NCBI GenBank assembly: GCA_017539565.1 | Contig: JAFYCS010000065.1 | Span: 1-64,000 of the forward strand | Direction of reading: 5' to 3' | Origin: Lachnospiraceae bacterium | GTDB lineage: Bacteria; Bacillota; Clostridia; Lachnospirales; Lachnospiraceae | Length of the DNA: 64,000 bases | In this document: positions 24,107 through 43,278 of the stretch, piece by piece | How positions within the stretch are numbered: the stretch's first letter is position 1 | How the letters are laid out: every line of letters starts with the position of its first letter | The notes under the pieces: generated by a model | Database searches by the model: none | Seen by the model: the letters and a program-made list of their open reading frames with translations, nothing else | What the model was told of the DNA's origin: nothing | Made by a program: the position numbers and the translations under genes

Positions 24107-24882
24107 GTAAAGAAGCCTTATTACAGATACGCGATCTGACAAAGATCTATACAGACGATTCCGGTGAAAAGACAGTCCTTAAGGACCTGGATCTGGATGT
24201 TGAGAAAAGTGAATTCTTATGTATCCTGGGGCCTTCAGGCTGCGGAAAGTCAACACTTTTACGCTGCATCGCAGGCTTTGAGGAATACAGCGGAAGTGTC
24301 AGCGTTGACGGCACACAGCGCCGTGAGCCCGGCATAGACCGCTTTATGGTATTTCAGGATTTCAACCAGCTCTTCCCCTGGAAGACTGTCATAAATAATG
24401 TTGCATATCCCTTAAGCCTTAATATAAAGGCTCCCAAAGCAGAGATAAAAGAAAGAGCCCTTGAGGCTCTTAACAAAGTAGGTTTATCAGGCTGTAAGGA
24501 TCAGTATCCCCATCAGCTATCCGGCGGTATGAAACAGCGTGTGGCCATCGCAAAGGCCCTGGCCTTAAGGTCTCCCATCATCCTTATGGATGAGCCCTTC
24601 GCCGCTCTTGATGCAATGACGCGCAGCGGTCTTCAGAAGGAAATGTTAAGCATCTCCGAAAGTGAGAAGAATACCATAATCTTCATCACTCATAATATAC
24701 AGGAAGCCATAATCCTCGGCACCAGGATACTGGTATTCGGCCAGCAGGGCCATATACTCTTTGATGAGAAGAATCCCATGCAGCGCCCCGTAACTCCCGC
24801 TTCCGAAGGCTACGGCGAACTCTGGGAAGAACTGCACCACGCTCTTTATGAAGGCAGCCTTCCCGCCAAAACATCAAAGTAA
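24103..24882 (+). CDS. ABC importer, ATP-binding subunit
   Basis: Energises the importer. 259 residues from the ATG at 24103, which overlaps the permease stop (ATGA). Walker A is GPSGCGKST, the Q-loop is in FQDFNQLFPW, the signature LSGGMKQRVAIA and Walker B ILMDEPFAALD are intact. The longer reading to 24088 is rejected for lack of a ribosome site. The 3' end overlaps the convergent ligase gene by nine bases, with no terminator between them. Confidence 0.93.
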   Translation: MSKEALLQIRDLTKIYTDDSGEKTVLKDLDLDVEKSEFLCILGPSGCGKSTLLRCIAGFEEYSGSVSVDGTQRREPGIDRFMVFQDFNQLFPWKTVINNVAYPLSLNIKAPKAEIKERALEALNKVGLSGCKDQYPHQLSGGMKQRVAIAKALALRSPIILMDEPFAALDAMTRSGLQKEMLSISESEKNTIIFITHNIQEAIILGTRILVFGQQGHILFDEKNPMQRPVTPASEGYGELWEELHHALYEGSLPAKTSK

Positions 24883-26334
24883 TCTCTTTCTCTGTATCTT
24901 TCCGTTACCCGTCCTGGGGATCTCGGCGATAACCTCGATATGCTTGGGTACTTTATTGGCATCTAAGAGACCTTTTAAGAACTCCGTGCATTCCTTTACA
25001 GAAAAGTCCTCACAGCCTTCCTGAAGGCTCACAAAGAGCTTGGGAACCTGTCCGTAGGTTTTATCAGGCATCGGAACGCAGGCCGCATCCTTTACCCCTT
25101 TAAACTTGACTGCTTCCTGCTCTATCTCATCGGGGCTTATCTTTACTCCTGCAAAATTTATCACATCATCCTGCCTTCCCAGACAGTAGATATAGCCTTC
25201 ATTATCGATATAGCCCAGGTCATTCGTATAGATAAAGCCGTCCTTTACAGCCTGTGCTGTAAGCTCGGGTGCATTAAAATATTCCTTCATATTTTGGGCG
25301 CCGCCCGTCGCAAGGAAAGCCGGATGCGCTTCATCTGCTTCTACGGTATTTTTATTTTCATCAGCAAATATGAACTTTGCATTCTTTGTGGCCCGGCCTA
25401 TGCAGTGAGGCCTTATCGTTTCATCCTGGAAGTCCAGTATGCAGCTGCATCCGGCCTCAGTACTGCCGTAGAAATTATAAAGCCTTGTATGGGGCAGCAG
25501 CTGCTTAAGATGCTGCTTATCCTCCTCCACAAGAGGTGCACTTCCCAGCTGTATGTAATCCAGCTGATCCTTATACTCCCCTATCTTATCCTTTGAAAGC
25601 TTGAATATTATCGACAATAATGTCGGAGCCAGGTCTATAGCTGTAACCCTGTATTCCTCCATCATGTTAAACATAAGCTTGACCGCCATAACACCGCCTA
25701 TTATTATAACGGTATTTCCGAAATAGAGATTTGCCAGGCTCCTGCGGTATCCATGACTGTGGGACAGTGGCATTGGAATAAGCTCCACGTTATCCCTGCC
25801 CATCTTTACGCCTTCGGTTATATTCTCTGCAAGCGCTATATTGTTCTTAAAGGTGATGACTATACCTTTTGACTTGCCGGTTGTTCCCGTAGAAAACAGA
25901 ACCTCTGATACGTCATCAGCATCGGGGAAATCCTGCCCTTCAAAAACAGGTTCCGCATCATCTTCCGCTCCGGGCATCCTGAACTGCTTGAGCGATACGT
26001 CAGTTTCCCTGTTATCAAGATAAAGTACGGCTTTCGTATCTTCGCTTATCTCTTTTATACGTACACTGCCTGCATCTTTCTCAATGGGCACAGGTATCGC
26101 ACCGTAAAGCTGCAGGGCAAACATTGCGGTAAGGAAGGCTGCATCCTGTGTGCAGCGTATCAGGACGTGATCGCCCTTTTTAACTCCCTGCTGTGCCAGA
26201 GTTTCACCATAACGCTGCATTCGTCCGAAGAGCTGCGAATAGCTCAGTTTCTCCCCCGGATCGATCAGTGCATATCTGTCTTTATGCGTGGCATCACCTG
26301 CATATCCGGCTATGTATTCAAGTATGGTCTCCAT
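24874..26334 (-). CDS. AMP-forming acyl/amino-acid ligase (first of two)
   Basis: Adenylate-forming enzyme (ANL superfamily) that activates a carboxylic acid with ATP for transfer to CoA or a carrier protein. 486 residues from the ATG at 26334 (AAAGG nine bases upstream). Core motifs are FSTGTTGKSKG (A3), NFYGSTEAG (A5), TNDLG (A7), GRQDDVINFAGVKISPDE (A8) and the catalytic Lys in GNGKIQRKRL (A10). It lies at the end of the Dlt-like group next to MBOAT, carrier protein and SGNH genes, so loading of the carrier protein is likely. A second ligase nearby suggests two acids or two steps. Substrate is not readable. Confidence 0.85.
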   Translation of the reverse strand: METILEYIAGYAGDATHKDRYALIDPGEKLSYSQLFGRMQRYGETLAQQGVKKGDHVLIRCTQDAAFLTAMFALQLYGAIPVPIEKDAGSVRIKEISEDTKAVLYLDNRETDVSLKQFRMPGAEDDAEPVFEGQDFPDADDVSEVLFSTGTTGKSKGIVITFKNNIALAENITEGVKMGRDNVELIPMPLSHSHGYRRSLANLYFGNTVIIIGGVMAVKLMFNMMEEYRVTAIDLAPTLLSIIFKLSKDKIGEYKDQLDYIQLGSAPLVEEDKQHLKQLLPHTRLYNFYGSTEAGCSCILDFQDETIRPHCIGRATKNAKFIFADENKNTVEADEAHPAFLATGGAQNMKEYFNAPELTAQAVKDGFIYTNDLGYIDNEGYIYCLGRQDDVINFAGVKISPDEIEQEAVKFKGVKDAACVPMPDKTYGQVPKLFVSLQEGCEDFSVKECTEFLKGLLDANKVPKHIEVIAEIPRTGNGKIQRKRLL

Positions 26335-26347
26335 CTTTCCCATCCTT

Positions 26348-27925
26348 TCAGAAATTAGCATACATAAAGCTGCTGGCCACGTCCTCACCGGGTGCCAGTA
26401 TTATCAACGTGAGCAGCATAAGTGCATAAATGACCGTCCTTATCAGAGCAGGGCACTTCTTCTTGGCCTCTTCCCATTTACCTTTCTCGCACAGCACATC
26501 CACTATGATGAGGACTACTATACCTATATCCCATAAGATAACGTTTTCTCCGCTTATATTCTTAAAAAAGAATATCACATGATTGATCTCTTTGATCCGG
26601 AAGTTCGTGAACGCATGCGCTATTGTGGAAAGTGCCGTCCCCATATCGGGCGAAAGCGAAAAGAACCTGAATATGCTTATCAGCACAAAAGTCCTGCCCA
26701 CGCAGAACGCTTTCCAGATAAAACTGTCAGAATTGATATGAAGCTTTGTTTTTATACCCTTGTATGTCTCCTCCAGCTGTGTGGTAGAGAGTATCACGAT
26801 AAAGTTAAGATAGCCCCATACCAGGAAGGTCCAGTTGGCGCCGTGCCAGAGTCCCGTTGCGGTCCATACGAAAAACAGGGCAAGATGTCCTGCTATCAGC
26901 TTGCCGGTCCTGGCACCCCATTTGCCGCGGGCCCATTTTGAAAGACGGCTGCCGGTCTTGCTCATGGATACGGGATAGAATACGTAGTCCCGAAACCACC
27001 GTCCCAGTGTGATATGCCATCTGCGCCAGTACTCGTCCACTGTCTTTGCCATAAAAGGCTGTTTAAAATTCTCCGACAGCTCTATGCCCAGGATATGGCA
27101 GAAACCGCACATCATATCCATGTACCCGGAAAAGTCAGCATAGATACGGAAGCTGTAGAGTACTACAGCAAAGCAGATAAGTATAAAACCATAGTCCTCG
27201 TAATTACCCAGCGTTGTGTTGATATAGCCCGCCAGTATATCGGCTATTGCCACTTTTTTATAGGCACCCCAGAGTATACGGGCGCAGCCTTCACAGAGCC
27301 TGTCATAAGAAAAACGATGCTCCGAAAAGATCTCTTTACCAAGCTCATTAAAACGTGAAAAAGGGCCCTCAGTTATATGGGGGAAAAATGATACAAAAGT
27401 GAAATACTTAAAGAAATTCTTTTCTGCAGGATACTTGCCGCGGTATACATCCACCACATATCCTATGGCATGAAATACATAAAAAGACATACCCAGAGGC
27501 AGGATAAGCCCCGTCAGGGTATTTTCCATATTGATCTTAAACAGCGAAAGGACAGACAGTACGTTCTGCATGATAAAGCCGCCGTACTTGATCACTATCC
27601 AGGGAGCCAGTATCAGAAGTACAGTAATCGTGCAGATACTCTTCTTCTGCTTTAAGCCCGCTCTTCTGATGGCATCCTTCTCTTCCGCTGATGCTTCTTT
27701 AAGCTTCTGTGCAGACTGTGCTATCTTCTTTTCCAGCACTATGGCTGATAAGTAACTGATAAGCGCACACAGTATGATAAAGACTATATATACCGGCCCG
27801 TAGCTTAAATAAAAATATATATTTGCAGCCAGCAGCACCACCCAGCGTGCCTTACCGGGTATCACGAAATACAGAAGTATCGTGAGGGCGGCAAACACCA
27901 GGCAGTGCAGCGATACGAGATTCAT
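26348..27925 (-). CDS. MBOAT family O-acyltransferase (DltB/AlgI type)
   Basis: Polytopic membrane protein (525 residues, about ten helices) that passes acyl groups across or onto extracellular acceptors. Family motifs are clear: the RWHITLGRWFRDYVFYPVS segment and the catalytic-region histidine in ATGLWHGANWTFLVWG. DltB (D-alanylation of teichoic acid) and AlgI (alginate acetylation) share these. The gene starts six bases after the carrier protein stop with a weak ribosome site, implying translational coupling. With the ligases, carrier protein and SGNH protein it forms a Dlt-like set; the acceptor is probably the glycan made by the neighbouring genes (inference). Confidence 0.9.
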   Translation of the reverse strand: MNLVSLHCLVFAALTILLYFVIPGKARWVVLLAANIYFYLSYGPVYIVFIILCALISYLSAIVLEKKIAQSAQKLKEASAEEKDAIRRAGLKQKKSICTITVLLILAPWIVIKYGGFIMQNVLSVLSLFKINMENTLTGLILPLGMSFYVFHAIGYVVDVYRGKYPAEKNFFKYFTFVSFFPHITEGPFSRFNELGKEIFSEHRFSYDRLCEGCARILWGAYKKVAIADILAGYINTTLGNYEDYGFILICFAVVLYSFRIYADFSGYMDMMCGFCHILGIELSENFKQPFMAKTVDEYWRRWHITLGRWFRDYVFYPVSMSKTGSRLSKWARGKWGARTGKLIAGHLALFFVWTATGLWHGANWTFLVWGYLNFIVILSTTQLEETYKGIKTKLHINSDSFIWKAFCVGRTFVLISIFRFFSLSPDMGTALSTIAHAFTNFRIKEINHVIFFFKNISGENVILWDIGIVVLIIVDVLCEKGKWEEAKKKCPALIRTVIYALMLLTLIILAPGEDVASSFMYANF

Positions 27926-27931
27926 TATATC

Positions 27932-28156
27932 TTAGCCCTGCATCTTCTTTATAAGTGCGTAAAGTGCCTCTGCGCTGTTGAAGTTTTCGGGGAGCAGATC
28001 ATCAACATTTATCTCAACACCGAAATGCTCGTTTACTTCGCTCACGATGGAGATGATGTCAAAGGAATCCAGCAGCTCATCGTCGATAAGCTTCGTCTCC
28101 TTTGTGAAATCGATGTCATCCCTTATTCCTGACATGATGCTTAACAGTTCATCCAT
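27932..28156 (-). CDS. acyl carrier protein (DltC-like)
   Basis: 74-residue four-helix carrier. The phosphopantetheine attachment serine is Ser31 in LLDSFDI, where most acyl carriers have DSLD. Length and acidic composition are normal. GGAGG precedes the ATG. Located between MBOAT and acetyltransferase genes, it should carry the acyl or aminoacyl group activated by one of the two AMP ligases and hand it to the MBOAT protein. It is distinct from a fatty-acid ACP by context only. Confidence 0.88.
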   Translation of the reverse strand: MDELLSIMSGIRDDIDFTKETKLIDDELLDSFDIISIVSEVNEHFGVEINVDDLLPENFNSAEALYALIKKMQG

Positions 28157-28180
28157 TTTTATTATCCTCCGGTATTTATT

Positions 28181-28831
28181 TTATTGATCCATAAGCTTTC
28201 TGAGCGCTTCTATATCGGGATCTTTCATGAGAAGGTCCATGTTCTCCTTCACCTTTTCAAAACTCCAATCCCACCATTTGAGCTCTAACATAAAGTTTAT
28301 CACTTCCTTTAAGAACCTGTAGGAAATGATCCTTGCGGGGGATCCCGCCACTATCGCATAAGGCGGCACCGATCTGGTGACCACGGAGCCCGCACCTATC
28401 ACCGCGCCGTCTCCTATGGAGAGCCCGGGCTTTCTGAGTATCATCGCTCCGGCTCCTATCCATACGTCGTTGCCGATCAGTATCTTTTTTTCGTCAGGGT
28501 GTTTTAAAAGCTTTCCCTCCAACTTGTTCTTCATCCGGTATTCCGGCATCATTGTCACATGCTTGTAGGCATGCTCATTCCCGCCTATATCCACCAGTCT
28601 TGATATACTGCAGTACTTGCCTATCTCCGCCCAGAGTATGCTGGTGTCGGCTCCGGTATAAGTCATGTCGCCTATCACCGAATCCCTTATCAGATTTCTC
28701 TTCTCGATGTCCACGAAAGAGCCGAGTGTACTGGATAGTATCACGCTGTCTTTGTCTATGCTGGACTTGTCACCGATAGTGCTCTGCTTTACCGTTGCGT
28801 CTGCGTGCTGCTTGTAGTTCTTTTCTTCCAT
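28181..28831 (-). CDS. hexapeptide-repeat acetyltransferase (CatB/VatD-like)
   Basis: Left-handed beta-helix acyltransferase of 216 residues, probably trimeric and using acetyl-CoA. Imperfect [LIV]-G-x4 repeats run through the sequence ([40 protein letters not shown]), with a loop containing NEHAYKH that likely carries the catalytic His. Family members acetylate sugars or antibiotics. Here acetylation of a sugar precursor of the surface glycan is the simplest reading. GGGGG precedes the start; it lies between the carrier protein and the second ligase in one run. Confidence 0.82.
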
Positions 28832-28842
28832 TACTTCCCCCC

Positions 28843-30243
28843 TTACGCCTTAAGCGCTGCATACTGCACCTTTCCCGCCGCATTCTTGGGTATCTCGGTT
28901 ATCACATGCACGTGGAAAAGATGCCGGTTTATCTTAAGTTTCCCGAATATATAATCCGAGATACCTTCTTTAAGAGTTCCGTCGGTAATATATATGTCAA
29001 GCGAATCGTCTTCGCCTGCGCATGCCGCATCCACTATGTTAAACTGATCCTTTATTAGCATTTCCACTTCCGAAAGGTTGGTACGCTTTCCTGTGATCTT
29101 GATAAAGCGCTTCTTTCTTCCGTAGATGTAGTAATACCCGTCCTCATCCTTATAGGCCATATCGCCTGTCTGAAGCCTTCCGTGATTTACATCGCCAAGC
29201 TTAAGGTCTTCCCTGCACTCCGCATATCCAAGGCTTACATTATCACCGTAATATATGAGCTCGCCTTTTTCTCCGGCACCTTCTAAAACTTCATTGTTTT
29301 CATCTATGATCTCGAAACGCCCGCCGGGTATGGCTATACCCATGCTGCCTTTCTTTGCCACAGCCATGTCAGCCGGAAGATATCCCATACGTGCCGTAGC
29401 TTCCGAAGCACCGTACATCACAACAAAGCTGATACCCTTTTCGGCCGCATAGGCAGCGAACTTCTCATGCAGCTGGGGCGAAAGCTTTCCGCCTGCCTGG
29501 GTCATGGTCTTTAATCCGCTCACGCTCTTTTTTGTAAAGCCCAGTTTATCCATCATCTCATACATAAAGGGTATGCCTGCAAATGAAGTGCAGCCGTTTC
29601 TTTCAAAGCAGTCCCAGAACTTCTTTGAATAGCAGTTCTCCTTTGTCAGCACCAGTGTCCCCCCGGCATAGAGATGGGTATTGAGTACCGAAAGCCCGTA
29701 TACGTAATTGAGCGGCAGCGACGCTATCGCACGCTCATTTTCATCTATCTTTAAATACTCTGTTATCGCCTTTGTATTGGATCTGATATTGTCATAGCTC
29801 AGACGTATGAGCTTCGGGCTGCCTGTGGATCCCGATGTCGATATCAGAAGCGCCAGCTCCTCATAGAGTTCAGTAGCTTCTTCGGTATCCGACATAAGCA
29901 GGCTGTATCCGCCCATTGACCTTATATGTGAGTAGTCTTTATGCTCATCCGCGGCTTCCGCGGGCAGCCATATATAAAGGGGTTTATAGCTTTCCACCAT
30001 CGTGCGGATAGTCTGCGTATTTATAGCGGCATCGATCATAAGGGGAACTATCCCGGCATTTAAGAATGCCACATAGCCGGTAACGCACTCCGAAGTATTA
30101 CTGCAGAGTATAAAGGCCAGGGATCGGTTTTTAAGACCGGCTGTAAGTTCATGAGTATGAGCGGACAGCTCATTATAGGTGATCATCCTGTCACCTTCGA
30201 TGAGTGCCGTCTTATCACCGTATTTTTCCAGATCCCAGATCAA
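28843..30243 (-). CDS. AMP-forming acyl/amino-acid ligase (second of two)
   Basis: 466-residue ANL-superfamily enzyme. Motifs are [18 protein letters not shown] (A3), [14 protein letters not shown] (A5), [13 protein letters not shown] (A7), [21 protein letters not shown] (A8) and the C-terminal Lys in [11 protein letters not shown] (A10). The start is TTG overlapping the SGNH stop codon (TTGA), with GGAGAGG seven bases upstream. It differs clearly from the first ligase, so the two probably use different acids. DltA-like loading of the carrier protein is a good guess, but specificity is not readable. Confidence 0.84.
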
Positions 30244-31604
30244 AATACTACCTCTCCTTCTTCCCCGTTCAATAATCTGTCGATATCATATACCTGCCAT
30301 GCCGCGTTCTCATCATCCGGCGACAATGCAGCCTTTATCCTTATCTTTTCATTATCCGAAAGCACCGGTATAGTCTGATCCGGATCATCCGTCCAGTCTA
30401 TGAGCATCTCGTAATCCTTCCCACCGTTACGCGCTATCTCCACGCAGTATAGTACAGACGCATCGTCATTCTGAAGGCTTGTTATATGCAGCTTAATGCT
30501 GCTGCCGTCTGATACCCCTTCAGCCCGCAGTGCCACCACTCTGTTCACGTTCTGCTTAAGCTCATCGATATCTTTGTAAAAATATCCGCTTACATCTTCT
30601 CCGTCCATATACTTTTTGAGTATCTCCCCGTATACGGAACTCAGCTTGTATGCGCCTTCGCCGCTGAAATGCCAGCCGTCATACATCAGTCTGTCGGGAA
30701 ATATCTCTTCCCTGTCACGGACATAATTCAGGTTATGATATGCGATGCCCTTCTCTTTGGCATACTCCGTATAGAAATCTATCGCCCCCTGGAAGTTGTC
30801 TATGTTATAGATACTCATCATCGAAACAGGCGGTGATACAAGTATAAGCCTGATGCCGTTTTCTTTACAATAATCGCACAGCTTATCCAGGTAGCCAAGT
30901 CTGACAGGATCGATCTCCGCCTTATCAAAACGGTTCTTCCACCTGCTGTCTATGGCGATATTACCGTCATCCAGATTCCTGTTGGCATAGATAAAGCCTT
31001 TTCCGTGATAAGTATTGACCTGGGTAGTATCCGGTATATAGCCGTTCTTTTTGAGATCCCGGCGGTCCGAAATATTCTGCATGATGTTTTCGAAAGTAAA
31101 ATCGAACCGGTAGCGGTACAGATAGAAAAGCTGTGGAAAAACATCCGTCCCTATATTCCTGACAAGATAACCTGCCTTTCCGCCAAGGCTCAGCCTGTCA
31201 TATAATTTAAGCGTATGCTCCATACGCAGCACATCTTCTTCGGCTGTCTGGAATGTATTCCACTGCACACCCAGTACTACTGTCTTGGGCTTAACGTCGT
31301 CATTTAAGTCCTTGAGCATCAGATAGCTTTCTTCTACCCTCTGTCCCGAAGATCCTGCCACCAGGCAGTTTCCCACAGCGAGTTTTTCTTCATATACCTC
31401 CGGTACAAAGGACCTGAATATACGCGATGATCCCAGGAACAATACATCAACGGACTCTTTGCCGGCTGTTATCTTTTCAACATCGGCCCTGAAATACTCT
31501 CCTTCACCTACAGGTGTTACCATCCTTCCAAGGATGATAAGCCCTGCTGTAAAGATCAGTGCTGTCAGTACAGGGACGGCTGCTTTCTTAAAAAACTTCT
31601 TCAT
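30240..31604 (-). CDS. membrane-anchored SGNH-like protein (DltD/AlgJ type)
   Basis: 454 residues. One N-terminal membrane helix (about 8-28) anchors a large extracellular domain. The nucleophile motif is GSSR (Ser59/Ser60, in VDVLFLGSSRIFRS) and the acid-base pair is likely in YDGWHFSGEGA. SGNH proteins beside an MBOAT gene (DltD, AlgJ/AlgX, PatB) complete acyl transfer to the polymer or hydrolyse it. Here it is directly overlapped by the second ligase. About 110 residues after the DGWH motif form an extra C-terminal domain I do not recognise. Confidence 0.78.
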   Translation of the reverse strand: MKKFFKKAAVPVLTALIFTAGLIILGRMVTPVGEGEYFRADVEKITAGKESVDVLFLGSSRIFRSFVPEVYEEKLAVGNCLVAGSSGQRVEESYLMLKDLNDDVKPKTVVLGVQWNTFQTAEEDVLRMEHTLKLYDRLSLGGKAGYLVRNIGTDVFPQLFYLYRYRFDFTFENIMQNISDRRDLKKNGYIPDTTQVNTYHGKGFIYANRNLDDGNIAIDSRWKNRFDKAEIDPVRLGYLDKLCDYCKENGIRLILVSPPVSMMSIYNIDNFQGAIDFYTEYAKEKGIAYHNLNYVRDREEIFPDRLMYDGWHFSGEGAYKLSSVYGEILKKYMDGEDVSGYFYKDIDELKQNVNRVVALRAEGVSDGSSIKLHITSLQNDDASVLYCVEIARNGGKDYEMLIDWTDDPDQTIPVLSDNEKIRIKAALSPDDENAAWQVYDIDRLLNGEEGEVVF

Positions 31605-31621
31605 ATCACGCGATCCATCCC

Positions 31622-32482
31622 TTACAGATCTAACATTGCCACACGCGGTTCAAAACAGCAGCAGGGGCGCATGCATACGATACGGACACCGCTGGCCCTC
31701 TGCGGACCTGTCTTCATAAACGTTGCCAGTACGGAATTCTTTCCTCCCAGTCCCAATGCCCCGGTATTGCTTTCGTTAACGGCTGCAGTGATACGCTTTT
31801 CACATTCATTCTGTACATCGTATCTGCCTTCGGTCATGGCACGCAGCATCATTGCAGAAGCTTCAAAATGAGACCTTCCTATTCCCACTGCCAATGTGCA
31901 GGGGCTGCAGCCCAGCTGCGAAACACTCTCCCGTGCCCATTGTATTATCTCTTCCAGCACGGTATCCAGACTGTGCCTGTGAAATACCCTGTAAGTCTTG
32001 GCACGTATCTCGGGTCCTCCGCCCTGCATAAGTATATACAGCCGCAGCCTTTCCTCATCATCGACATATTCCATGCTAAGTGGTGCAGGCACCAATCCCG
32101 CAGGATCCTCCATCAGGCCTTCAGACTGCTCTATGCGCTGCTTATCATCACCTTTGACAGCCATGGGCCTGCCCGGGAGTTTTTTAAGCCCGCTGCGCAC
32201 ACCCTCATATATCGCTTCCAGCATATCCCCGTTTATAGATCTGTTCTTTCCGATCTGCAATAAAAGATGGGGGATACCTGTATCATCACAGAGGGGCGAA
32301 CGGTTCTTTTCCGCTACCTTTGCGTTATCCACTATCTGCTTCATTGCCCACACAGACAGCTCCGTATCGTCCTCCATTGCCCGCGCATATGCTCCGTATC
32401 TGTCGGGCGGGAACACACTGCCTGCCCTTACAAGCGTATCCGCTACAGCCTCTGTGAGCTCTTTTAATCCCGTTTCATTCAT
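31622..32482 (-). CDS. class I fumarase / tartrate dehydratase, alpha subunit
   Basis: Iron-sulfur hydro-lyase subunit that adds or removes water across a dicarboxylic acid (fumarate-malate, tartrate-oxaloacetate and similar). 286 residues from the ATG at 32482, which overlaps the beta-subunit gene and has GGAG upstream. Cluster cysteines are seen in PLCDDTGIP, GCSPCTLAVG and RPCCCFEPR. Being encoded within the glycan and Dlt-like run, and not with a TCA-cycle set, suggests a dedicated substrate. Housekeeping fumarase cannot be excluded. Confidence 0.85.
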   Translation of the reverse strand: MNETGLKELTEAVADTLVRAGSVFPPDRYGAYARAMEDDTELSVWAMKQIVDNAKVAEKNRSPLCDDTGIPHLLLQIGKNRSINGDMLEAIYEGVRSGLKKLPGRPMAVKGDDKQRIEQSEGLMEDPAGLVPAPLSMEYVDDEERLRLYILMQGGGPEIRAKTYRVFHRHSLDTVLEEIIQWARESVSQLGCSPCTLAVGIGRSHFEASAMMLRAMTEGRYDVQNECEKRITAAVNESNTGALGLGGKNSVLATFMKTGPQRASGVRIVCMRPCCCFEPRVAMLDL

Positions 32483-34126: not shown

Positions 34127-34127
34127 C

Positions 34128-35174: not shown

Positions 35175-36425
35175 CTATACTATATCTCCCTCGGCCGGGA
35201 TAAGCCTTCTGTCTGTGATATCCCTTCCTTCGTTATCGATGATCCTGATGCCTTTCATGGCTTCCCTTAGCTTGCCAAGACACTCCATACGGTCATCACC
35301 TTTTATTATGAGCGCGATCACCCTGGCACTGCTGGCCTTCTCCGTACTTATATGCATGCCTGAGGTCTTCTGCATGAAGTATTCCGCGATAAGGCCTTTA
35401 GACTTCTGTTCCTCAAGGCCTTCGGTATGATCGTATACTCCCTCCATCCCCTGCACCTGGTAAGCTAAGATGGTCTTCTTTTCGGGAACGGGATCCTTAT
35501 CAAAACGTATATGATGGTACGAATCTATCGAAGCACTGAGCATATCGAAATCCGCATTGTCTTCCATCAGGTAAAAACATGTACCACCGCCAAGACGGGG
35601 TGAAAACTCTATAACGCTCACTTCGCCGTCCTCACCGACTATCGCCTGATAGAAGAGCGGCGTATTGTCAAAGCCGAATACCTGCGCGATGCGTGTGGCT
35701 ACCTCGCCCAGTTTCTCCTTAACCTGCGCACTCACATCAGCCGGGCAAACGGAAGAAAAACACTTGACTATATCACTGCCCACAAAGCTTATGCGGTTCT
35801 GGGTAGTGACGACAACAGCCTTTTTATCCCTGACATAGGAATAAACGCTTACCTCCCGGCCCTGCCTGTATTCCTCTATTATCACATCATTACTGAAGCT
35901 CCAGCCGCCCGCTCTCTTTACAGCTTCCGCAAGGAGCGCGGGATCCTCTATCCTGGCTACGCCGGCAGATCCGCAGCTGTCCACGGGCTTTACGATCACC
36001 GGGAAGCGGAGACCTAAGGATGACAGATCGGTATCCTTTCCCACCTGTATATACTTTGCGGTGGGTATGCCGTTCTCCATCATGATCTTTTTCATGTAAC
36101 GCTTATTGGTAACGTTCCTTGCCGTTTCCGGATCAAAGGGGAACGACAATCCAAGCGTCTCCGATACCCTTGCCGCTATCAGCATCTGCTGGTCTAAGCA
36201 GGGTGACATCACAAGCTCAGCGTTCTTTTCTTTTGCTATCTTTAATACGGCGTCATAATCCATGGCGCTCTCTTTTATGTGTTCATCCGCGTCTGCTGCC
36301 GCAGGAGGCGCATCAAAATAATCCACCAATACGGTATAGTATCCTCTGGCTTTAAGCTTTCTCATCAGAAAGCCATGAGGATAAATGCCTCCAAGTATGA
36401 CCGCAACGGGCTTCTGTTCATTCAT
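35175..36425 (-). CDS. ATP-grasp carboxylate ligase
   Basis: Joins a carboxylate to an amine or thiol with ATP via an acyl phosphate. 416 residues from the ATG at 36425, with AGGAG 11 bases upstream. ATP-grasp features are VIVKPVDSCGSAGV (about 140-155), the EEYRQGREVSVYSY strand and the metal-binding IEFSPRLGGG. The N-terminal part resembles PurK/PurT-like pre-ATP-grasp domains. Ligases of this sort make peptide-like or amide links, so the cluster may attach an amino acid to the built acid. Confidence 0.8.
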   Translation of the reverse strand: MNEQKPVAVILGGIYPHGFLMRKLKARGYYTVLVDYFDAPPAAADADEHIKESAMDYDAVLKIAKEKNAELVMSPCLDQQMLIAARVSETLGLSFPFDPETARNVTNKRYMKKIMMENGIPTAKYIQVGKDTDLSSLGLRFPVIVKPVDSCGSAGVARIEDPALLAEAVKRAGGWSFSNDVIIEEYRQGREVSVYSYVRDKKAVVVTTQNRISFVGSDIVKCFSSVCPADVSAQVKEKLGEVATRIAQVFGFDNTPLFYQAIVGEDGEVSVIEFSPRLGGGTCFYLMEDNADFDMLSASIDSYHHIRFDKDPVPEKKTILAYQVQGMEGVYDHTEGLEEQKSKGLIAEYFMQKTSGMHISTEKASSARVIALIIKGDDRMECLGKLREAMKGIRIIDNEGRDITDRRLIPAEGDIV

Positions 36426-36442
36426 CGGATCGTTCACTCCTG

Positions 36443-37336
36443 TCAACTCTTCCATAAGGATGCGGAAACTTTTGCATCCGGATAATATTCATCTATAACT
36501 CTCTTTACCAGCACGATCTGCTTTGCCCTCTTCTTTGCATCATCCACCGTGCTGTCCCAGCTGTGTGTCTTGGCGACCGAACCGCCGGTCTTTAAATAGA
36601 TCGGAGCTGCTACCCTTATCATCTCGGGCACTTCATAGTGGCGGATAAAGCCGCCTGAAGATTCCGGGTTCTCCGTATGTATATCGATGGGGATATCGAT
36701 TGCCTGTCTCATGGCTGCGAGCATCTGCAGCTGTATATCTCTTACGGGATTGATCGAGTTGGCACCTATACTCTCTAAAAGCTTTGCGGAGCAGGGATTT
36801 CCGTGACCGGTATGAGCCGACACCTTAAAGTGGCAGTCAGCCGGCAGTTCCCCGGCTTTGCGCATTTCATTTAAGATCCATAAGCAGCCTTCATCATATA
36901 CCAGAAAGCCTCTGCATCCCAGGCCTGCAGCACGTTTGACATCCTCTACGGCACGCACTATCTGCTCCTGTCCGCGCAGGCGGTATCCCATACGCTGCCC
37001 CTCCGGGGTATGTACGGATGCACTGGTATCGGTAGTAGCCCTGGGCCCTATAGCCAATATCAGCTGGAGATGATATTCGTTTGCAAGCCTTACCATCTCA
37101 CTTATCTCTTCATCCAGAAGGGTCCAGATACCCTTTGTCTGTGTAACTCTGTGGATAGGTATCTTATAGCCTTCAAGTGACTCAAGAAGCGCCTGCATTA
37201 CCTTGGGTCCCTGTATGCCCGGCACCTCAAAGCGGAACTGTCCTCCGTCCGCAAAACGCTTCTCCGAAGTCTTAAGTGAATAGTCATCACCTTCGGGAAG
37301 GCCTATGCTCTTTAAAAATGCTCTTGTCTTTTCCAT
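36443..37336 (-). CDS. unrecognised, possibly TIM-barrel protein
   Basis: 297 residues; I do not recognise the family with confidence. Alternating strand and helix stretches (VRLANEYHLQLILAIGP, GCRGFLVYDEGCLWILNEM, AIDIPIDIHTENP) suggest an alpha/beta barrel, loosely like U32 peptidase-type proteins. Several His, Cys and Asp residues are clustered in SAHTGHGNPCSA. The second ATG (37336) has the better spacing to AGGAG. The gene sits seven bases after PrpD and overlaps the ATP-grasp unit, so it is part of the pathway. Confidence 0.55.
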   Translation of the reverse strand: MEKTRAFLKSIGLPEGDDYSLKTSEKRFADGGQFRFEVPGIQGPKVMQALLESLEGYKIPIHRVTQTKGIWTLLDEEISEMVRLANEYHLQLILAIGPRATTDTSASVHTPEGQRMGYRLRGQEQIVRAVEDVKRAAGLGCRGFLVYDEGCLWILNEMRKAGELPADCHFKVSAHTGHGNPCSAKLLESIGANSINPVRDIQLQMLAAMRQAIDIPIDIHTENPESSGGFIRHYEVPEMIRVAAPIYLKTGGSVAKTHSWDSTVDDAKKRAKQIVLVKRVIDEYYPDAKVSASLWKS

Positions 37337-37346
37337 CATATCTCCT

Positions 37347-38675
37347 CTATATCAGTTCCAATAGGCGGGGCAGTCTGTTCTCAACATCCATTACCGCTTC
37401 ATATAATTCCTTACTGTCTGCACCGTCCCATCCGGCTGCTTCACAAAGCGAAAAGAACTTATCCTTTATCTCCTGTGCAGTGACGGGGTTTTCCGGCTCT
37501 CCCCTGGGGTAGTCCACCCTGCAGGTGTAGGTATCCTTCCCGCTCCTTATGCTTACGATGGCTCCCCTCTTAGCGGGTACCAGTGCTGAAAGCTCGGGAT
37601 CCTCTTCAATCCTCACCCTCTTCATCAGGCAGGCTAACTCTTCGTCCGAAAGGCAGTCTTCTTCGTACTGCTGGTAATTGACCCTGCCGTACTTAAGCGC
37701 TGCCGCAACGGAGTACGGCATGCTCATCTTTGCCGAACCCGCACCCTTTATCTCGGTATGCTCGTGCCCTTTGATCGCAAGGCCGTATGTCCTTATCAAT
37801 ATCTCCTCGGTATCGTCGGGTATAAAAGAATACTGTTCACGGAGCTTAAGTACCGCTTCTATAGCCGCATGTGTGTGCCTGCAGGCTGCATAGGGTTTGC
37901 GGTATATGGTCTTTATCGCATACTGCGGCATGAAGCCGTTTAAGAGCCTGTCTTCATTTATCTCTGCAGCCGTTGCCGTAAAGAAACCGCGCTTGCCGCC
38001 CAGTACATCCCCCGGTCCCTTAAGACCGCTGCGTCCCGCTATCAGCGCATTTATGCCTGCTGCCGCGGCACGCCCGATATTATAGGGCTTTAATTCCGAA
38101 CCGTCGTCGATGAGCTGCAGCAGTCCCGCAGCATCCGATGCCGCAGCGGCAAATACCGCATCCCATTCCTCATCCTTAAGATCAAGGGCTGCCGCCAGTC
38201 CCAGGGCTGCGCCCATGGCACCGCAGCTTCCCGTTGCATGAAAGCCTTTTAATTTATGTCCCGGCTGTATAGCAGCGCCCAGCCTTATCGTTGTTTCATA
38301 TCCGATAACGATGCCTTTTATAAAGCTGCTGCCGTCTATTTTGTAATGTGCAGCTGCGGAAATAAGGGCGCTTATCACAGGTGCTCCCGGATGGAGCATC
38401 GCAAAACGCTGTCCGTCATCCAGCTCCGCCATATGTGCGGACATACCGTTTATCAGCGCCGCCGCATGCATGGAGCTTTTGCTGTGCCTGCCGATCAGCG
38501 GCACATCTCCGGCTTCCGCTTCAAAGGCTCCCTTGGTAAGATCTGCTCCCAGCACGGCGCATGCCATATAATCCGCAAGACACTGTCCGGCTTCCGCCGC
38601 AGCTTCCTCAGGAACAGGCTTCCTCGCCAGAGCGCGTATCTCATCAAGAAACCTTGTCGTTATCGTCTTTTCCAT
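37347..38675 (-). CDS. MmgE/PrpD family dehydratase
   Basis: 442-residue enzyme of the 2-methylcitrate dehydratase / cis-aconitate decarboxylase / isomerase family. These remove water or CO2 from branched tricarboxylates. Family features include MSAHMAELDDGQRFAMLHPGAPV with the active-site Asp and His, and the KPYAACRHTHAAIEA segment. No 2-methylcitrate synthase or PrpB is nearby, so classical propionate breakdown is unlikely. Its start overlaps the glycosyltransferase end by 32 bases in another frame, with a clear GAGAGG site, which ties the acid chemistry to the glycan genes. Confidence 0.86.
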   Translation of the reverse strand: MEKTITTRFLDEIRALARKPVPEEAAAEAGQCLADYMACAVLGADLTKGAFEAEAGDVPLIGRHSKSSMHAAALINGMSAHMAELDDGQRFAMLHPGAPVISALISAAAHYKIDGSSFIKGIVIGYETTIRLGAAIQPGHKLKGFHATGSCGAMGAALGLAAALDLKDEEWDAVFAAAASDAAGLLQLIDDGSELKPYNIGRAAAAGINALIAGRSGLKGPGDVLGGKRGFFTATAAEINEDRLLNGFMPQYAIKTIYRKPYAACRHTHAAIEAVLKLREQYSFIPDDTEEILIRTYGLAIKGHEHTEIKGAGSAKMSMPYSVAAALKYGRVNYQQYEEDCLSDEELACLMKRVRIEEDPELSALVPAKRGAIVSIRSGKDTYTCRVDYPRGEPENPVTAQEIKDKFFSLCEAAGWDGADSKELYEAVMDVENRLPRLLELI

Positions 38676-39588
38676 TAATTACCTCTCTGACATAGAACTG
38701 CGGCATGCCGCTCACAGTCATGTATATCCTTCCCAGATACTCACCCATGACTCCCAGGATGAGCATGATGACACCGCTCATGAACAGCACGGTGATCATG
38801 GTACTGGTATAACCGGCAACCTTTGTGGGATGAACAAGTTTACGTATGAACAGATAAATGATGCCGATAAAACCGACACCCGAAAAAAGGAATCCCAGAT
38901 AGGTCGCCATACGAAGGGGCATCATTGAAAAACTGATGAATATATTCAGCCAGAGCTTAAAGAGCTTCTTTAAGGTATAACCGGATTTTCCCTCCAGCCT
39001 TTCCTTATGCTCCACTTCTACATTCGCATATTTCGTGGTCACCGACATCAGGAATGAACCTATGGAAACAAAGGGGCTCTTATATGTCAGCATGGCATCC
39101 ACTACAGGCCTTGACCATACCGAAAACGAAGAACGCTTTATGCCCTTGGGCTTGTTCCCCATAAACTCCGCGATACGGTTATGCAGGCTGCTGGTCATGC
39201 GCTTAAAGAGGCTGTGCTTCTTCTTCTTAAAATCCGCATAGACCACATCATAGCCTTCCTTAAGCTTGGCCAGAAGTGCCGGTATCCCTTCCGCGGGATG
39301 CTGTCCGTCGTCGTCCATAAAAACAACGGCGTCGCCCTTAGCCTGACGCAGTGCAGCCAGCTTGGCAGACGCCTGACCGTAATTCCTGGTCAGGTTAACG
39401 CCTGTGATCTTTTCATTTTCCCTGCACAGCTCAAGTATCACCCCGAAGGTATTGTCGGGAGAGCCGTCGTTTACCAGGACTATCTGGTAATCGTCTTCGA
39501 TCGTTTCGAACACTTCCTTTATGTTCTGTACCACCACAGGAAGTGTCTTAGCCGATCTGTAGCAGGGTATGCAAACCGATACCAACAT
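38644..39588 (-). CDS. family 2 glycosyltransferase with C-terminal membrane helices
   Basis: 314 residues, DPM1/GtrB-like: a cytoplasmic GT-A domain (about 1-230) and two membrane helices (about 232-290). The donor and metal site is FMDDDGQHPAEG, and the N-terminal VSVCIPCYRSAKTLP strand is typical. Such enzymes transfer a sugar to undecaprenyl phosphate for export. AGAGGA lies six bases before the ATG. With the flippase it makes the lipid-linked part of the pathway. Confidence 0.9.
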   Translation of the reverse strand: MLVSVCIPCYRSAKTLPVVVQNIKEVFETIEDDYQIVLVNDGSPDNTFGVILELCRENEKITGVNLTRNYGQASAKLAALRQAKGDAVVFMDDDGQHPAEGIPALLAKLKEGYDVVYADFKKKKHSLFKRMTSSLHNRIAEFMGNKPKGIKRSSFSVWSRPVVDAMLTYKSPFVSIGSFLMSVTTKYANVEVEHKERLEGKSGYTLKKLFKLWLNIFISFSMMPLRMATYLGFLFSGVGFIGIIYLFIRKLVHPTKVAGYTSTMITVLFMSGVIMLILGVMGEYLGRIYMTVSGMPQFYVREVINGKDDNDKVS

Positions 39589-39589
39589 A

Positions 39590-41041
39590 TCAATTCCTCT
39601 TTAATAAGAGTTTTATCAACCCGTTAATCTTTTTCCTGAACACAACATATAGTATTATACTAATAATCCCGAAAAAAATCCACCGTATATACCAATTTAA
39701 GTCATACAAATATATGCTGGCCTCATTGACCGCAAAACAGCCTATGCAGATCAGGCTCATAAGGCCCAGAGATACGATACGGCGCCCGCAGACTATGGAT
39801 TCCAGCACGCCCTGGATGACCAGCAGGAAAAGGTAGCTGGCCGCTGTCGTAAAGGCCGCAGCCTGGTATCCGAAGCGCTTGATGAATATATAATTGAGCA
39901 CAATATTTAGTATCATGGCACTCACTGTACCTATACCGCAGAAAACCGTCTTTTTCTCGTAGTTCTCTATGGTCGAGAAGATATTGCTGTAAAAACGGAA
40001 CAGCGTGCCGGTGACCATGGGTGCGATCAGGTATACGGCTTCTTTATATTTATTGCCGCCAAGTATTGCTATGAGCTCAGGCCCGAATACCACCAGCGCC
40101 CAGGAGAAGAATGCAAAAACAAGGACTATCATATACCAGGGCTTTTTTATATCTTTATCTTCTTTACGGGTTATCTTTTCATAAACCCAGGGCTGCCATG
40201 CGCCCCATACCGCATCTTCCACTATCCAGATGATGAAGGATACTGTCGTGGCCAGTGCAAATACGCCCGCGTTGTCGGCCATGGTCAGCTTCTTGACCAT
40301 TATCTTATCCGCCTGGTTCATTATCTGTATAGACAAGGTCTCCGGTATCAGCGGCAGGCTGAATGTTATGGCATACTTCCAGTATGACATATCCGGCTTG
40401 ATGCCGCCCTGCTTAAACATGAGCACCGCCAGGATGATGCCTCCTATCACCTGGGGTGTGAAATAGCCTATGATGCGCAGATCCACAAGGCTGTCTTCCC
40501 TGTGCGTCACATTGCCCCAGTACAGCAGGGCTATGGATAAGAGCACTGCCGGTATCATCATGAGCGCCGATGCCGCCGTGTTCACCTTATATCTCATCAT
40601 CTGCTTTTCCCTGCGCTGGAAGGACAGGGTGGCCGTATACGCAAAGGTATAGAATATCATGTAGATGTACATGATAAGGTTCATGTCGGTCTTATCCATA
40701 AAGAACTGCCTGAAGAAAAGGCTGATGGCACTGATAAAAACAAAGATACTGATATATGAGCACATAACGGCCGAGGATACGTAATGGTCAAAGTCCTCCT
40801 CATGGTCGTATTTGGCACGCTCGATGCTGCGGTACAGAGAAAGGGACATTACGGGCACGATGATGAGCAGCCAGGATTCGTATACACGCAGCTCACCGTA
40901 CTGTGCCTTTGATACAAGGCGGGTATATACGGGCGTTAATAAAAAGGTCACGCCCCTGACCAGCATCTGCATAAAGACGAAGAAAAATCCCGCCTTGGCA
41001 GCTTTTTTATTCAGTTCCTGTTTACTGATCTTTTCCTGCAT
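39590..41041 (-). CDS. Wzx-type polysaccharide flippase
   Basis: 483-residue membrane protein of the MOP superfamily, with about 12-14 hydrophobic segments. It starts KQELNKKAAKAGFFFVFMQMLVRGVTFLLTPVYTRLVS, typical of flippases that move lipid-linked oligosaccharide units. The ATG overlaps the stop of the upstream membrane gene by one base (TAATG). It should move the unit made by the GT2 enzyme to the outer face. Confidence 0.9.
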   Translation of the reverse strand: MQEKISKQELNKKAAKAGFFFVFMQMLVRGVTFLLTPVYTRLVSKAQYGELRVYESWLLIIVPVMSLSLYRSIERAKYDHEEDFDHYVSSAVMCSYISIFVFISAISLFFRQFFMDKTDMNLIMYIYMIFYTFAYTATLSFQRREKQMMRYKVNTAASALMMIPAVLLSIALLYWGNVTHREDSLVDLRIIGYFTPQVIGGIILAVLMFKQGGIKPDMSYWKYAITFSLPLIPETLSIQIMNQADKIMVKKLTMADNAGVFALATTVSFIIWIVEDAVWGAWQPWVYEKITRKEDKDIKKPWYMIVLVFAFFSWALVVFGPELIAILGGNKYKEAVYLIAPMVTGTLFRFYSNIFSTIENYEKKTVFCGIGTVSAMILNIVLNYIFIKRFGYQAAAFTTAASYLFLLVIQGVLESIVCGRRIVSLGLMSLICIGCFAVNEASIYLYDLNWYIRWIFFGIISIILYVVFRKKINGLIKLLLKRN

Positions 41042-43278
41042 TACCTGACTCTTTCATACAGATAATATACCTGCCTGCCCACGTTTATGTTCTTTACGAT
41101 CTCCATTCCTTCAAGCTCAAGAGACGGATCGTCGCTTATCAGATGTTCCTGATCATCTATGCTTACATAGCGGTCAAAATTGATATCCCAGCCCAGCTGC
41201 ATATAAAGCATGGGAAGGCCGTAGGTGTAGCCGTAACAATCCTTTGGCACTTCAGTCTCAAAATTCTTTATATCCGCTTCTATCGCTGCGGCGGACATTA
41301 CCGAATTATCCGTCAGCTTGGTGCTTATCGAACTTACGGCCTGGGGTGTGCTTAATGCAAAAGCGGTAAGTCCCATGGTCACTATTATCCCCGCACTCAT
41401 AAAGAGGTTTCCTTCACGGGAAAAGACCTTCTCGTACAGCATCAATATTATAAGTGCCAGAGGCGCCGCTATTATTGCATATTCTTCCGGCCTGGTCATC
41501 CAGTATACGAAGTATCCCAGGCTTATCAGCAGTCCGCTTATATATACCCTTTCGCTGCCTTTGCAGGAGAGCTTCCCATACTTTTTAAGGATGCCCGTCT
41601 TATACAGCACGGCCGCCGTAAGGATCATAAGCAGTATCATGATATAGAGCCAGGGATCGTTGCCCCAGCGCAGCACGCCGTTGCTTCCGGTGGTCACATG
41701 GTCCACGATAAACACTTCCGAAGATCTGGAAAACACGCCTTCCGCTCCCGGCCCGAAGCTGTTGGCCAGCAGGTTATAGAGTGCGACTATACCATATGCC
41801 AAAGCAGCCTCAAGAGCCATAAAGGGAAGCTCTTTAAGCATTGCGATGATCAGCTGTTTAAGGCTCTTGCCTTCACCGTTCTTTAATACGGTGTATACGG
41901 AAAAGACAGCCGCACAGACGGCACCTGTCTCGGGATTCCAGAGGATGGCTGCCATGCATAGGAAAAATCCCGCGATACGGTGACGGTCCTTTTTACCGCT
42001 GTTCTTATCATCGCCCTTATCCTTTATGATGATGATATACATGAGCATCGCCGGGAATAAGAAACGGCAGGGGAAATTCTGAAGATAGAGCCAGGGTATC
42101 GCCAGTGCACTTACTAAGAGGATCCCTCCAAGCAGCTTTAACAGATCGCTCTTTATGAGCTTATGCATGATGAGCAGTATAAATACCATCGATACCGCAG
42201 CAGTGATCCCCGTGATCACGCCCACTGTCGTGATGCTGTGTCCGAATATCATCATGAAAGGCTTATAGAACAGTGCGTAATGGCCGTAGACATCCATATT
42301 CTTCCCGCCGAAGGGAAGGAACCTGGATACCACGTAGAGGGGCCTGTAGTATATGCCCGTGTGCCTTAAGTCTCCCACTTCCCCGCCCCAGAAATTGACT
42401 ATACAGTGCTCACAGAATGTAAGCGCCGTGATAATACCGTAATAAACAGGCCAGATGAAAGCCGGAAATCTAACTTCCTTAAGCAAAAATCTCCTGCCTT
42501 TAAAAAGAGCTGCCGCGACCGCTGCCGTGCAGATTAACTTAAGCACAAGGCCGCTGCCTTCAAGATAATATGAAAACTGTCCCTTTAACAGACAGATAAG
42601 TATCAGTACCGATGAGGGCACGAAATAACCGCTGCACACCGCACCGCGCAGTCCCTCGGAAACAGGCGCGGAAAGCTTTTTTCCGCCAAAGATCAAGAGT
42701 CCCAGCACAAATAAGCCGAAACAGCAGGAAAATCCCGCGATCCTTGTAAGTGAATATTTTCCGCCGAACACATAGGATAAAAGGGTCTTATCCTTTATAC
42801 TGAGCATCAGAAAGAAAAATGCCATCGCGATGCCTATGATCAGGGCCGCGATAAAAAGTATATCCGGGATATCCTTATCCGCTTTCTTATCGTCCGTGGT
42901 AAGTATCACGCAGCCCATGGCGGAATAGACCGCCACAAAAGAAAACGCTACGTTCATGTATGAGATATCTTCCCTTTCACCTGTGATCACTGCTCCGAGC
43001 GTCCAGATAGCAGCAAAAAAGAACAGCGTCCCCGCCGCCCCCGATCTGCCCTTTGACAATGATCCCAGTGAATTGAAGGCACCAAAAATACAGATGAGGG
43101 CCAGAGCCCCCATTGCACCGAAAACGGCAAGCTTAAGGCGATCCATATAAAGACCGCCTTCGCCGTAATTAAAACAGGTGTATTGTTTGTACCAGAGTAT
43201 CAGGAAAAGAATAAACAAAAAACCCGTGGCTGCAAATACAAAAGACCTGCTGTATTTAAGACCGCTGCTTTTTGCCAT
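41041..43278 (-). CDS. large polytopic membrane protein, possibly a lipid-sugar transferase or polymerase
   Basis: 745 residues with about 14-16 hydrophobic segments and a C-terminal outer domain of about 110 residues (INFDRYVSIDDQEHL to the end). The layout resembles GT-C type transferases or YfhO-like proteins, and an acidic first loop (CIVNFWGGEVGDLRHTGIYYRP) is compatible with that. I cannot name the family. AGGA precedes the ATG, which overlaps the stop of the CobW-like gene by one base (TAATG). Its likely job is sugar transfer or polymerisation on the outer face. Confidence 0.6.
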   Translation of the reverse strand: MAKSSGLKYSRSFVFAATGFLFILFLILWYKQYTCFNYGEGGLYMDRLKLAVFGAMGALALICIFGAFNSLGSLSKGRSGAAGTLFFFAAIWTLGAVITGEREDISYMNVAFSFVAVYSAMGCVILTTDDKKADKDIPDILFIAALIIGIAMAFFFLMLSIKDKTLLSYVFGGKYSLTRIAGFSCCFGLFVLGLLIFGGKKLSAPVSEGLRGAVCSGYFVPSSVLILICLLKGQFSYYLEGSGLVLKLICTAAVAAALFKGRRFLLKEVRFPAFIWPVYYGIITALTFCEHCIVNFWGGEVGDLRHTGIYYRPLYVVSRFLPFGGKNMDVYGHYALFYKPFMMIFGHSITTVGVITGITAAVSMVFILLIMHKLIKSDLLKLLGGILLVSALAIPWLYLQNFPCRFLFPAMLMYIIIIKDKGDDKNSGKKDRHRIAGFFLCMAAILWNPETGAVCAAVFSVYTVLKNGEGKSLKQLIIAMLKELPFMALEAALAYGIVALYNLLANSFGPGAEGVFSRSSEVFIVDHVTTGSNGVLRWGNDPWLYIMILLMILTAAVLYKTGILKKYGKLSCKGSERVYISGLLISLGYFVYWMTRPEEYAIIAAPLALIILMLYEKVFSREGNLFMSAGIIVTMGLTAFALSTPQAVSSISTKLTDNSVMSAAAIEADIKNFETEVPKDCYGYTYGLPMLYMQLGWDINFDRYVSIDDQEHLISDDPSLELEGMEIVKNINVGRQVYYLYERVR

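Follow-up and report, generated by a model that had tools for sequence, protein, structure and literature searches.

The window analysed here, a stretch of 64,000 nucleotides from a Lachnospiraceae bacterium (assembly GCA_017539565.1, contig JAFYCS010000065.1, positions 1 to 64,000; genome G000 in the genome (G) and locus (L) labels of our analysis), holds a cluster of sixteen open reading frames, all on the minus strand and running from 43278 to 24874, in which genes for acid chemistry stand between a glycan-synthesis set and a set resembling the D-alanylation (Dlt) genes. The question that this locus raises is whether these parts form one system and, if they do, what it makes. Our proposed answer, which we rate at an even chance, is a surface-glycan decoration locus of two modules, one for synthesis of an acid and one, Dlt-like, for its transfer. 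A sequence-only reading had described sixteen tightly packed genes and joined them into a single pathway, and the packing was borne out, with intergenic gaps of -41 to +24 bases and a genuine 32-base overlap of PrpD with GT2 that has a 35-base counterpart in the related genome G317. Its family names were mostly confirmed by hidden Markov model searches (Pfam and NCBIfam, E 0.001; Table 1), with the exceptions that the SGNH name rests on a DUF1574 match below cut-off plus motifs and that the barrel protein matches no family.

The acid genes recur as a cassette. One pattern scan of the GTDB collection (84,980 species genomes) gave relatives of the barrel protein at 341 places, and the best 80 by barrel similarity, taken with flanks of at most 10 kb, form our cassette sample, in which the presence of the barrel (80 of 80) is by selection. 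Alongside it we found the lyase in 75 loci, fumB in 71, fumA in 70 and PrpD in 69, as well as a Ppd-type decarboxylase in 57 and an aldo-keto reductase (AKR) in 54. Many loci are cut by contig ends, and exits and glycan genes were counted only in the 58 loci of at least 15 kb, 55 of which hold barrel, lyase, fumB and fumA together (in all but one within 7 kb), a recurrence that supports the earlier proposal of a dedicated set of acid genes. The commonest order, PrpD-AKR-Ppd-barrel-lyase-fumB-fumA, occurs in 28 of the 80 loci, and the orders PrpD-barrel-ATP-grasp-lyase-PGDH-fumB-fumA and PGDH-PrpD-barrel-ATP-grasp-lyase-fumB-fumA in three loci each, all with a dehydrogenase; the remaining orders vary. 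Because the carriers belong to distant taxa (Bacillota, Bacteroidota, Lentisphaerota and Fibrobacterota, largely from gut and rumen, with titles naming Lachnospiraceae, Oscillospiraceae, Erysipelotrichaceae, Victivallales, Bacteroidales, Fibrobacter and others), their distribution points to a probable horizontal spread of the cassette. Literature searches, judged by titles and opening lines of abstracts of open-access papers, listed no description of it.

Two enzymes appear to take the cassette's product away, and they are nearly exclusive of one another: 40 of the 58 loci carry only the Ppd decarboxylase (branch A), 17 only a 2-hydroxy-acid dehydrogenase (branch B, the window's), and one carries both. 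An ATP-grasp gene of the cassette type (at least 28% identity, a cut set post hoc, after the first counts) accompanies 16 of the 17 dehydrogenase loci versus 4 of the 41 loci with Ppd. Because a decarboxylase followed by a reductase would consume a 2-oxo acid, as would a 2-hydroxy-acid dehydrogenase, the common product is most likely a 2-oxo acid, which is the firmest of the suppositions on which our explanation builds, and the window's branch likely reduces it to a 2-hydroxy acid. The unusual hydroxy- or aminoacid of the sequence-only reading is thereby narrowed, for this branch, to a likely 2-hydroxy acid. Against so simple a picture stand several observations: the window's version of the dehydrogenase, Ldh2, is the rarer one (3 of the 80 loci, versus 18 with PGDH); both dehydrogenases occur in L092 and in G184 (L026), and both exits in L091; and the idea that ATP-grasp clades track dehydrogenase type failed in a phylogeny for which the labels of L024-L029 had been set by hand and later checked, with L026 turning out to have both types. 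The window's congeners G317 and G304 use the PGDH type rather than Ldh2. As separate observations, additional ATP-grasp genes of another type occur in the branch-B loci L024, L103 and L104, and in L024 a LicC-like nucleotidyltransferase (named by eye) stands beside permeases.

How such an acid might be made is suggested by the 2-methylcitrate cycle (PrpC, PrpD, AcnB, PrpB), in which a dehydratase and an Fe-S hydratase move a hydroxyl and a lyase then yields a 2-oxo acid. The cassette resembles it in having a PrpD-family enzyme, an Fe-S hydratase and a C-C lyase of the PEP/pyruvate superfamily, and differs in that the hydratase is of fumarase type, the lyase is the CitE-like PF15617 kind, and the sixteen genes include no citrate-synthase family, an uncharacterised barrel standing in its place. 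By analogy, the horizontally spread module 1 would start from a di- or tricarboxylic precursor, on which the barrel enzyme would carry out the first step, perhaps aldol-like; the PrpD-like enzyme and the FumA/FumB-like pair would remove water and add it back so that a hydroxyl changes place; and the PF15617 lyase would cleave a C-C bond to release the 2-oxo acid. In the window, Ldh2 would then reduce this to the 2-hydroxy acid, which the ATP-grasp enzyme would couple to a partner. We infer the order of the steps and the reaction of the barrel from this comparison, and hold its outline about as probable as its opposite and each single step less so. If the outline is right, five enzymes, one of them from a family without known function, find a place in one testable pathway, and the analysis as a whole suggests that common anaerobes, largely of gut and rumen, carry an undescribed acid on their surface.

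The PrpD-like protein, whose nearest solved structures are Bacillus subtilis IRG1 (7bra) and the IDS-epimerase 2hp3, missed the methylcitrate dehydratase equivalog TIGR02330 (28.4 bits, cut-off 458), and Ldh2 missed the L-sulfolactate dehydrogenase equivalog NF040650 (283.4 bits, cut-off 500). The FumA/FumB-like pair has the two-part Fumerase family and the three Fe-S cysteines that mark a class I fumarase/tartrate dehydratase; in the window's FumA-like subunit these cysteines, presumably the Fe-S ligands, align with cysteines of the solved fumarase 7xky. The motifs CQDTG, RDxAH and TSxR, which we take to be residues of fumarase substrate binding, are absent from the pair, which reads CDDTG, RDAVL and SSNK where solved relatives read CQDTG, RDEAH and TSAR. 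Because these substrate-site stretches are changed and yet nearly invariant within the cassette (70 fumA and 72 fumB rows), the pair is probably a hydro-lyase acting on a substrate other than fumarase's. In the PF15617 lyase, which the citE and RipC models match weakly and under cut-off, the stretches CFEDA, PILES, GGTDW and IIHP are largely conserved (73 rows) and, we assume, form a CitE-type metal site. The earlier name "Ter-type" holds for this protein as far as its Pfam family and no further: PF15617 lyases and ATP-grasp enzymes are, we take it, genes linked to Ter systems, and the two stand together here as in Ter operons, but no Ter family appeared among the sixteen genes in searches not aimed at Ter genes. 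As an aside on the PrpD family, six branch-A loci (L045, L060, L077, L081, L094 and L098) carry two different members.

The barrel protein has no match in Pfam or NCBIfam, and its sequence profile gave nothing credible against the PDB. An AlphaFold2 model built from 40 diverse rows is a confident TIM barrel (pLDDT 92.5, pTM 0.90), where an earlier run on 9 close sequences had reached pLDDT 57.7 with generic barrel matches only. Assignment of a function by fold was rejected, as the 50 Foldseek matches listed are all generic TIM barrels (TM by query 0.37-0.53), among them class II aldolases, ALAD, a U32 structure and 2-methylisocitrate lyase. Within the cassette the barrel shows the highest conservation, with 77-82% identity across genera where the lyase and Fum subunits of the same genomes reach 53-67%, and the residues invariant in the 40 rows include E38, D149, K172, D219 and K250, which lie in or beside strands of the model and would suit carbonyl chemistry. 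Public annotation calls two of its relatives (L149 and L150) "U32 family peptidase", a label that is probably misleading: the U32 models of Pfam and NCBIfam do not match the window's protein, and the U32 structure 5d88, fifth among the fold matches (TM 0.41 by query), is one of many generic ones. Wider surveys found the barrel in 9 of 299 family genomes, a count that includes the window's own genome and one weak, partial match, and in 32 of 398 phylum genomes, distant relatives counted. One such distant relative, L149 (Enterobacter chuandaensis plasmid, 7901-18864), lies in a small natural-product-like cluster with an aminotransferase, two iron-containing redox enzymes, a nucleotidyltransferase and an MFS transporter.

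The decarboxylase of branch A raises another possibility, namely that the cassette makes phosphonopyruvate, or a closely related C-P or C-S compound, by a route that dispenses with phosphoenolpyruvate (PEP) mutase; branch A would then yield a hydroxyethylphosphonate-like alcohol by decarboxylation and reduction, and the window a phosphonolactate-like acid. The one branch-A decarboxylase scanned against the phosphonopyruvate decarboxylase model TIGR03297 passed it (406.4 bits, cut-off 312.5), further cassette decarboxylases listed also exceed the cut-off, and no protein of the window genome does. PEP mutase (TIGR02320) is over cut-off in only 11 of the 50 branch-A genomes that were counted out of 57 submitted, with two more genomes showing weak matches only, although some absences may be gaps; of the 12 genomes tested first, two exceed the cut-off of PF13714, also a PEP mutase model, namely G303 and G304 (the latter a carrier of the cassette), and the window genome gave no match to it. 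Because PEP mutase is so scarce, the substrate is either a new one or phosphonopyruvate formed in some other way. In favour of phosphonopyruvate, both exits belong to the kinds of step that draw PEP mutase pathways forward, according to preprint PMC12871164, and the best model for Ldh2, under cut-off as it is, is the sulfolactate dehydrogenase one.

Against it, genomes with PEP mutase have additional decarboxylases, mostly higher-scoring, and eight such decarboxylases, none farther than 3 kb from a PEP mutase match, split from the cassette decarboxylases with support of 100/97 in a midpoint-rooted tree in which long branches meet at the root; the two groups also differ at conserved positions, and their substrates may differ. 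(Of 80 retrieved rows the tree holds 72; six of the 14 non-cassette genome rows and two cassette rows were dropped because their aligned part was too short or broken. The nine other genome rows in it are cassette copies seen again.) PrpD, fumarase and CitE-type enzymes, moreover, suit carboxylic acids. PEP mutase and cassette can share a region, because in three of the 11 genomes, G731 (L046), G750 (L072) and G732 (L047), they lie on one contig 7 to 18 kb apart, which speaks for the phosphonate route. Near those cassettes we saw PEP mutase with a decarboxylase of its own, or PEP mutase alone.

Compared with the known PEP-mutase phosphonate pathways (PepM, Ppd, PntC), the cassette is alike in its branch-A Ppd-family enzyme, in its decarboxylase and dehydrogenase exits (PMC12871164) and in its glycan setting (PMC6697681); it differs in its upstream enzymes and in the lack of any PEP mutase match in the window genome. 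We regard a PEP-mutase-free route to phosphonopyruvate or its analogue as improbable, and give the same low standing to the statement that the cassette makes phosphonopyruvate or a new 3-substituted pyruvate without PEP mutase, through the PF15617 lyase and the TIM barrel, and passes it on, for surface decoration, to decarboxylation and reduction or to reduction and ligation; if that were so, biology would have a second way of making surface acids of this class. No such route came to light in the titles and abstract openings of open-access papers. A new 2-oxo acid is more likely than a new phosphonopyruvate route, and the label "phosphonopyruvate decarboxylase" in cassette genomes need not mean phosphonates.

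Glycan-synthesis genes lie in the flanks of 48 of the 58 loci (31 of 41 with the decarboxylase, 17 of 17 without it), matched with query sets built from neighbours of the same loci and named by eye, and in the cultured carriers Clostridium citroniae, Mediterraneibacter and Acetatifactor muris the glycan setting is seen gene by gene, again with names given by eye. The tie to surface-glycan loci drawn in the sequence-only reading is supported. Other settings weigh against it. Ten branch-A loci of the 58 have no glycan match in their flanks; some branch-A loci include a LysR gene (14 of the 80 loci) or one for a DctM-like permease (16 of the 80); and beside distant barrel relatives we found genes for a TctA transporter, malic-enzyme-like and fumarase-like proteins, dihydroxy-acid dehydratase and ketopantoate hydroxymethyltransferase, so that those loci look like organic- or sugar-acid catabolism, the picture being mixed, and the cassette could run as degradation. 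In NE2001 (L106), which has the LysR-permease version, nucleotide-sugar genes lie just upstream and a sugar transferase downstream, past mobile-element-like genes (all by eye).

These settings, together with the Dlt-like genes, bear on a further alternative: that the window holds two neighbours that do not cooperate, an acid-metabolism operon (perhaps catabolic) and an ordinary wall-polymer acylation operon. We consider it unlikely; the LysR and DctM-like genes and the TctA, malic-enzyme-like and fumarase-like neighbours of distant relatives speak for it, the glycan genes around most cassette loci against it. The barrel is present in 3 of the 35 genomes of the genus (G000, G317 and G304), and these three alone of the 35 have AMP ligase 1 at an identity of at least 71% (3 of 3 with the acid genes, 0 of 32 without), the next best match being 43% in G786; in G789, which lacks the barrel, a 164-residue frame contains two short fragments of AMP ligase 1. 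Because AMP ligase 1 is found in the genus only with the acid genes, these few related genomes suggest that it serves the acid and that AMP ligase 2 serves something else.

G317 follows the order of the window nearly gene for gene and has an additional SGNH gene, and PGDH takes the place of Ldh2; identities to the window are high for the barrel (97%), GT2 (93%) and ACP (93%), and lower for PrpD (76%), fumA (70%), the polytopic protein (58%), SGNH (50%) and ATP-grasp (only 35%). The halves are interleaved in G304, where the order fumB-SGNH-AMP2-hexapeptide-ACP-MBOAT-fumA has acid genes enclosing Dlt-like ones, an arrangement that speaks against non-cooperating neighbours. The cobW pair of G304 lies on a separate contig, and its enlarged cluster (L030:9729-10000, L029:1-1009) also contains a second AMP ligase 2 paralogue, about 40% identical, and further genes. 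Outside the genus, G184 and Eubacterium L100 also have Dlt-like genes next to the cassette (in L100 ACP, MBOAT and AMP ligase, with no SGNH or hexapeptide match); the halves, though separable, have thus been joined more than once.

Their separability speaks for non-cooperating neighbours and against a single system. G789 and G787 carry ACP-MBOAT-SGNH-AMP2-hexapeptide next to cobW with no barrel in the genome, and G299, as far as its short contig reaches, carries the start of the same set; because the acid genes are absent from G789 and G787, AMP2, ACP and MBOAT must carry something else in them. AMP ligase 1 of G304 is encoded some 12 kb away from the other genes and on the opposite strand, where it neighbours an ABC transporter gene, as it does in the window. 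The three genomes with coupled halves are closely related and represent few independent events, and in the examined flanks of the 80 cassette loci an MBOAT match occurs in 4 and an ACP match in 4. The sequence-only reading had stated that its one-system idea would fall if relatives kept the two sets apart, and by that rule the halves are separable; the joining, supported with limits, is seen in all three acid-carrying genomes of the genus and again in G184 and L100.

For the two-module locus, known MBOAT-SGNH pairs offer a transfer device (PMC12148441). Like Dlt (DltABCD) and MBOAT-SGNH acylation systems, the window has an AMP ligase, a carrier with a serine site, an MBOAT and an SGNH-type protein; unlike Dlt, it passes none of the Dlt equivalog models searched and has two ligases and an attached acid-gene cassette. 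AMP ligase 1 would load the acid onto the carrier protein, MBOAT and the SGNH protein would transfer it to a glycan, and GT2, the flippase and the polytopic protein would build and export that glycan; we infer both the choice of ligase and the transfer. Ordinary D-alanylation with bystander metabolic genes, to which the set of AMP ligases, carrier, MBOAT and SGNH-type protein would also lend itself, we hold to be very improbable in view of the second AMP ligase, the hexapeptide transferase, the dedicated acid genes and the wide margins by which the Dlt equivalogs were missed: AMP ligase 2 scored 96.8 bits against DltA (TIGR01734, cut-off 559.85), a model that is not among the best 25 of 101 matches of AMP ligase 1, the carrier protein 25.1 bits against DltC (NF003464, cut-off 68), and MBOAT fell short of DltB (TIGR04091; Table 1).

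Table 1. The sixteen genes of the locus, listed in the direction of transcription, with the evidence for each name.
Feature	Coordinates	Strand	Evidence and remarks
Large polytopic membrane protein	41041..43278	-	58% relative, same place in G317
Polysaccharide flippase	39590..41041	-	PF01943 Polysacc_synt 65.8 bits; 85% G317, 60% G184
GT2 glycosyltransferase, ArnC/PgfS-like	38644..39588	-	PF00535; NF007986 179.6 bits, under cut-off 529
MmgE/PrpD-family enzyme (dehydratase, decarboxylase or epimerase type)	37347..38675	-	PF03972, PF19305
TIM-barrel enzyme, uncharacterised family	36443..37339	-	AlphaFold2 model; most conserved cassette member
ATP-grasp ligase	35175..36455	-	PF13535 57.6 bits; D-Ala ligase and PRK02186 models under cut-off
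Ldh2-family 2-hydroxy-acid dehydrogenase	34128..35171	-	PF02615 Ldh_2 362.8 bits
C-C lyase, CitE-like TIM-barrel kind	32978..34126	-	PF15617 C-C_Bond_Lyase 376.8 bits
FumB/TtdB-like beta subunit	32475..32981	-	PF05683 Fumerase_C; TIGR00723 85.3 bits, under cut-off 145.15
FumA/TtdA-like Fe-S alpha subunit	31622..32497	-	PF05681 Fumerase; TIGR00722 106.2 bits, cut-off 100.65
SGNH/DltD-like extracytoplasmic protein (putative)	30240..31604	-	DUF1574 24.8 bits, cut-off 29.1; GSS and DGWH motifs
AMP ligase 2	28843..30243	-	PF00501; 68% in G789
Hexapeptide acyltransferase	28181..28831	-	PF00132 Hexapep; TIGR03308 156.9 bits, under cut-off 201.65
Carrier protein (ACP), DSFD serine site	27932..28156	-	PF00550 PP-binding and motif
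MBOAT acyltransferase, DltB-like	26348..27925	-	PF03062; TIGR04091 147.1 bits, under cut-off 375
AMP ligase 1	24874..26388	-	PF00501, PF13193

Whether the halves share a transcript was approached by pattern scans. The gap between them (31604-31622) has no minus-strand terminator-like or promoter-like site, a point against non-cooperating neighbours. Over the scan as a whole, promoter-like sites show no excess (25, shuffle mean 29.7), with one 9-of-12 match at 31968-31939, inside fumA; terminator-like sites are in excess (27 on both strands, shuffles 14.9, sd 3.5), and the 14 on the minus strand all lie within genes. Judged from such patterns, a transcript break between the halves may still occur. 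The -41 overlap between MBOAT and AMP ligase 1 depends on an upstream GTG and is probably not a true overlap, because relatives align to AMP ligase 1 only from residue 14-15; its true start is probably at about residue 15-19. The polytopic protein has no match in Pfam or NCBIfam and is perhaps, at a guess, a glycan polymerase or GT-C type transferase.

Genes on either side of the locus complete the picture. A cobW pair (44207-45361 and 43278-44210) precedes the cluster, the first with a long His/Asp-rich stretch and the second matched in 32 of the 35 genus genomes and thus not tied to the cassette. At the other end, the gene for an ABC transporter ATPase (24088-24882), part of an NMT1-like uptake set, is convergent with AMP ligase 1 and overlaps it by 9 bases, and it is kept as the neighbour of AMP ligase 1 in both G317 and G304.

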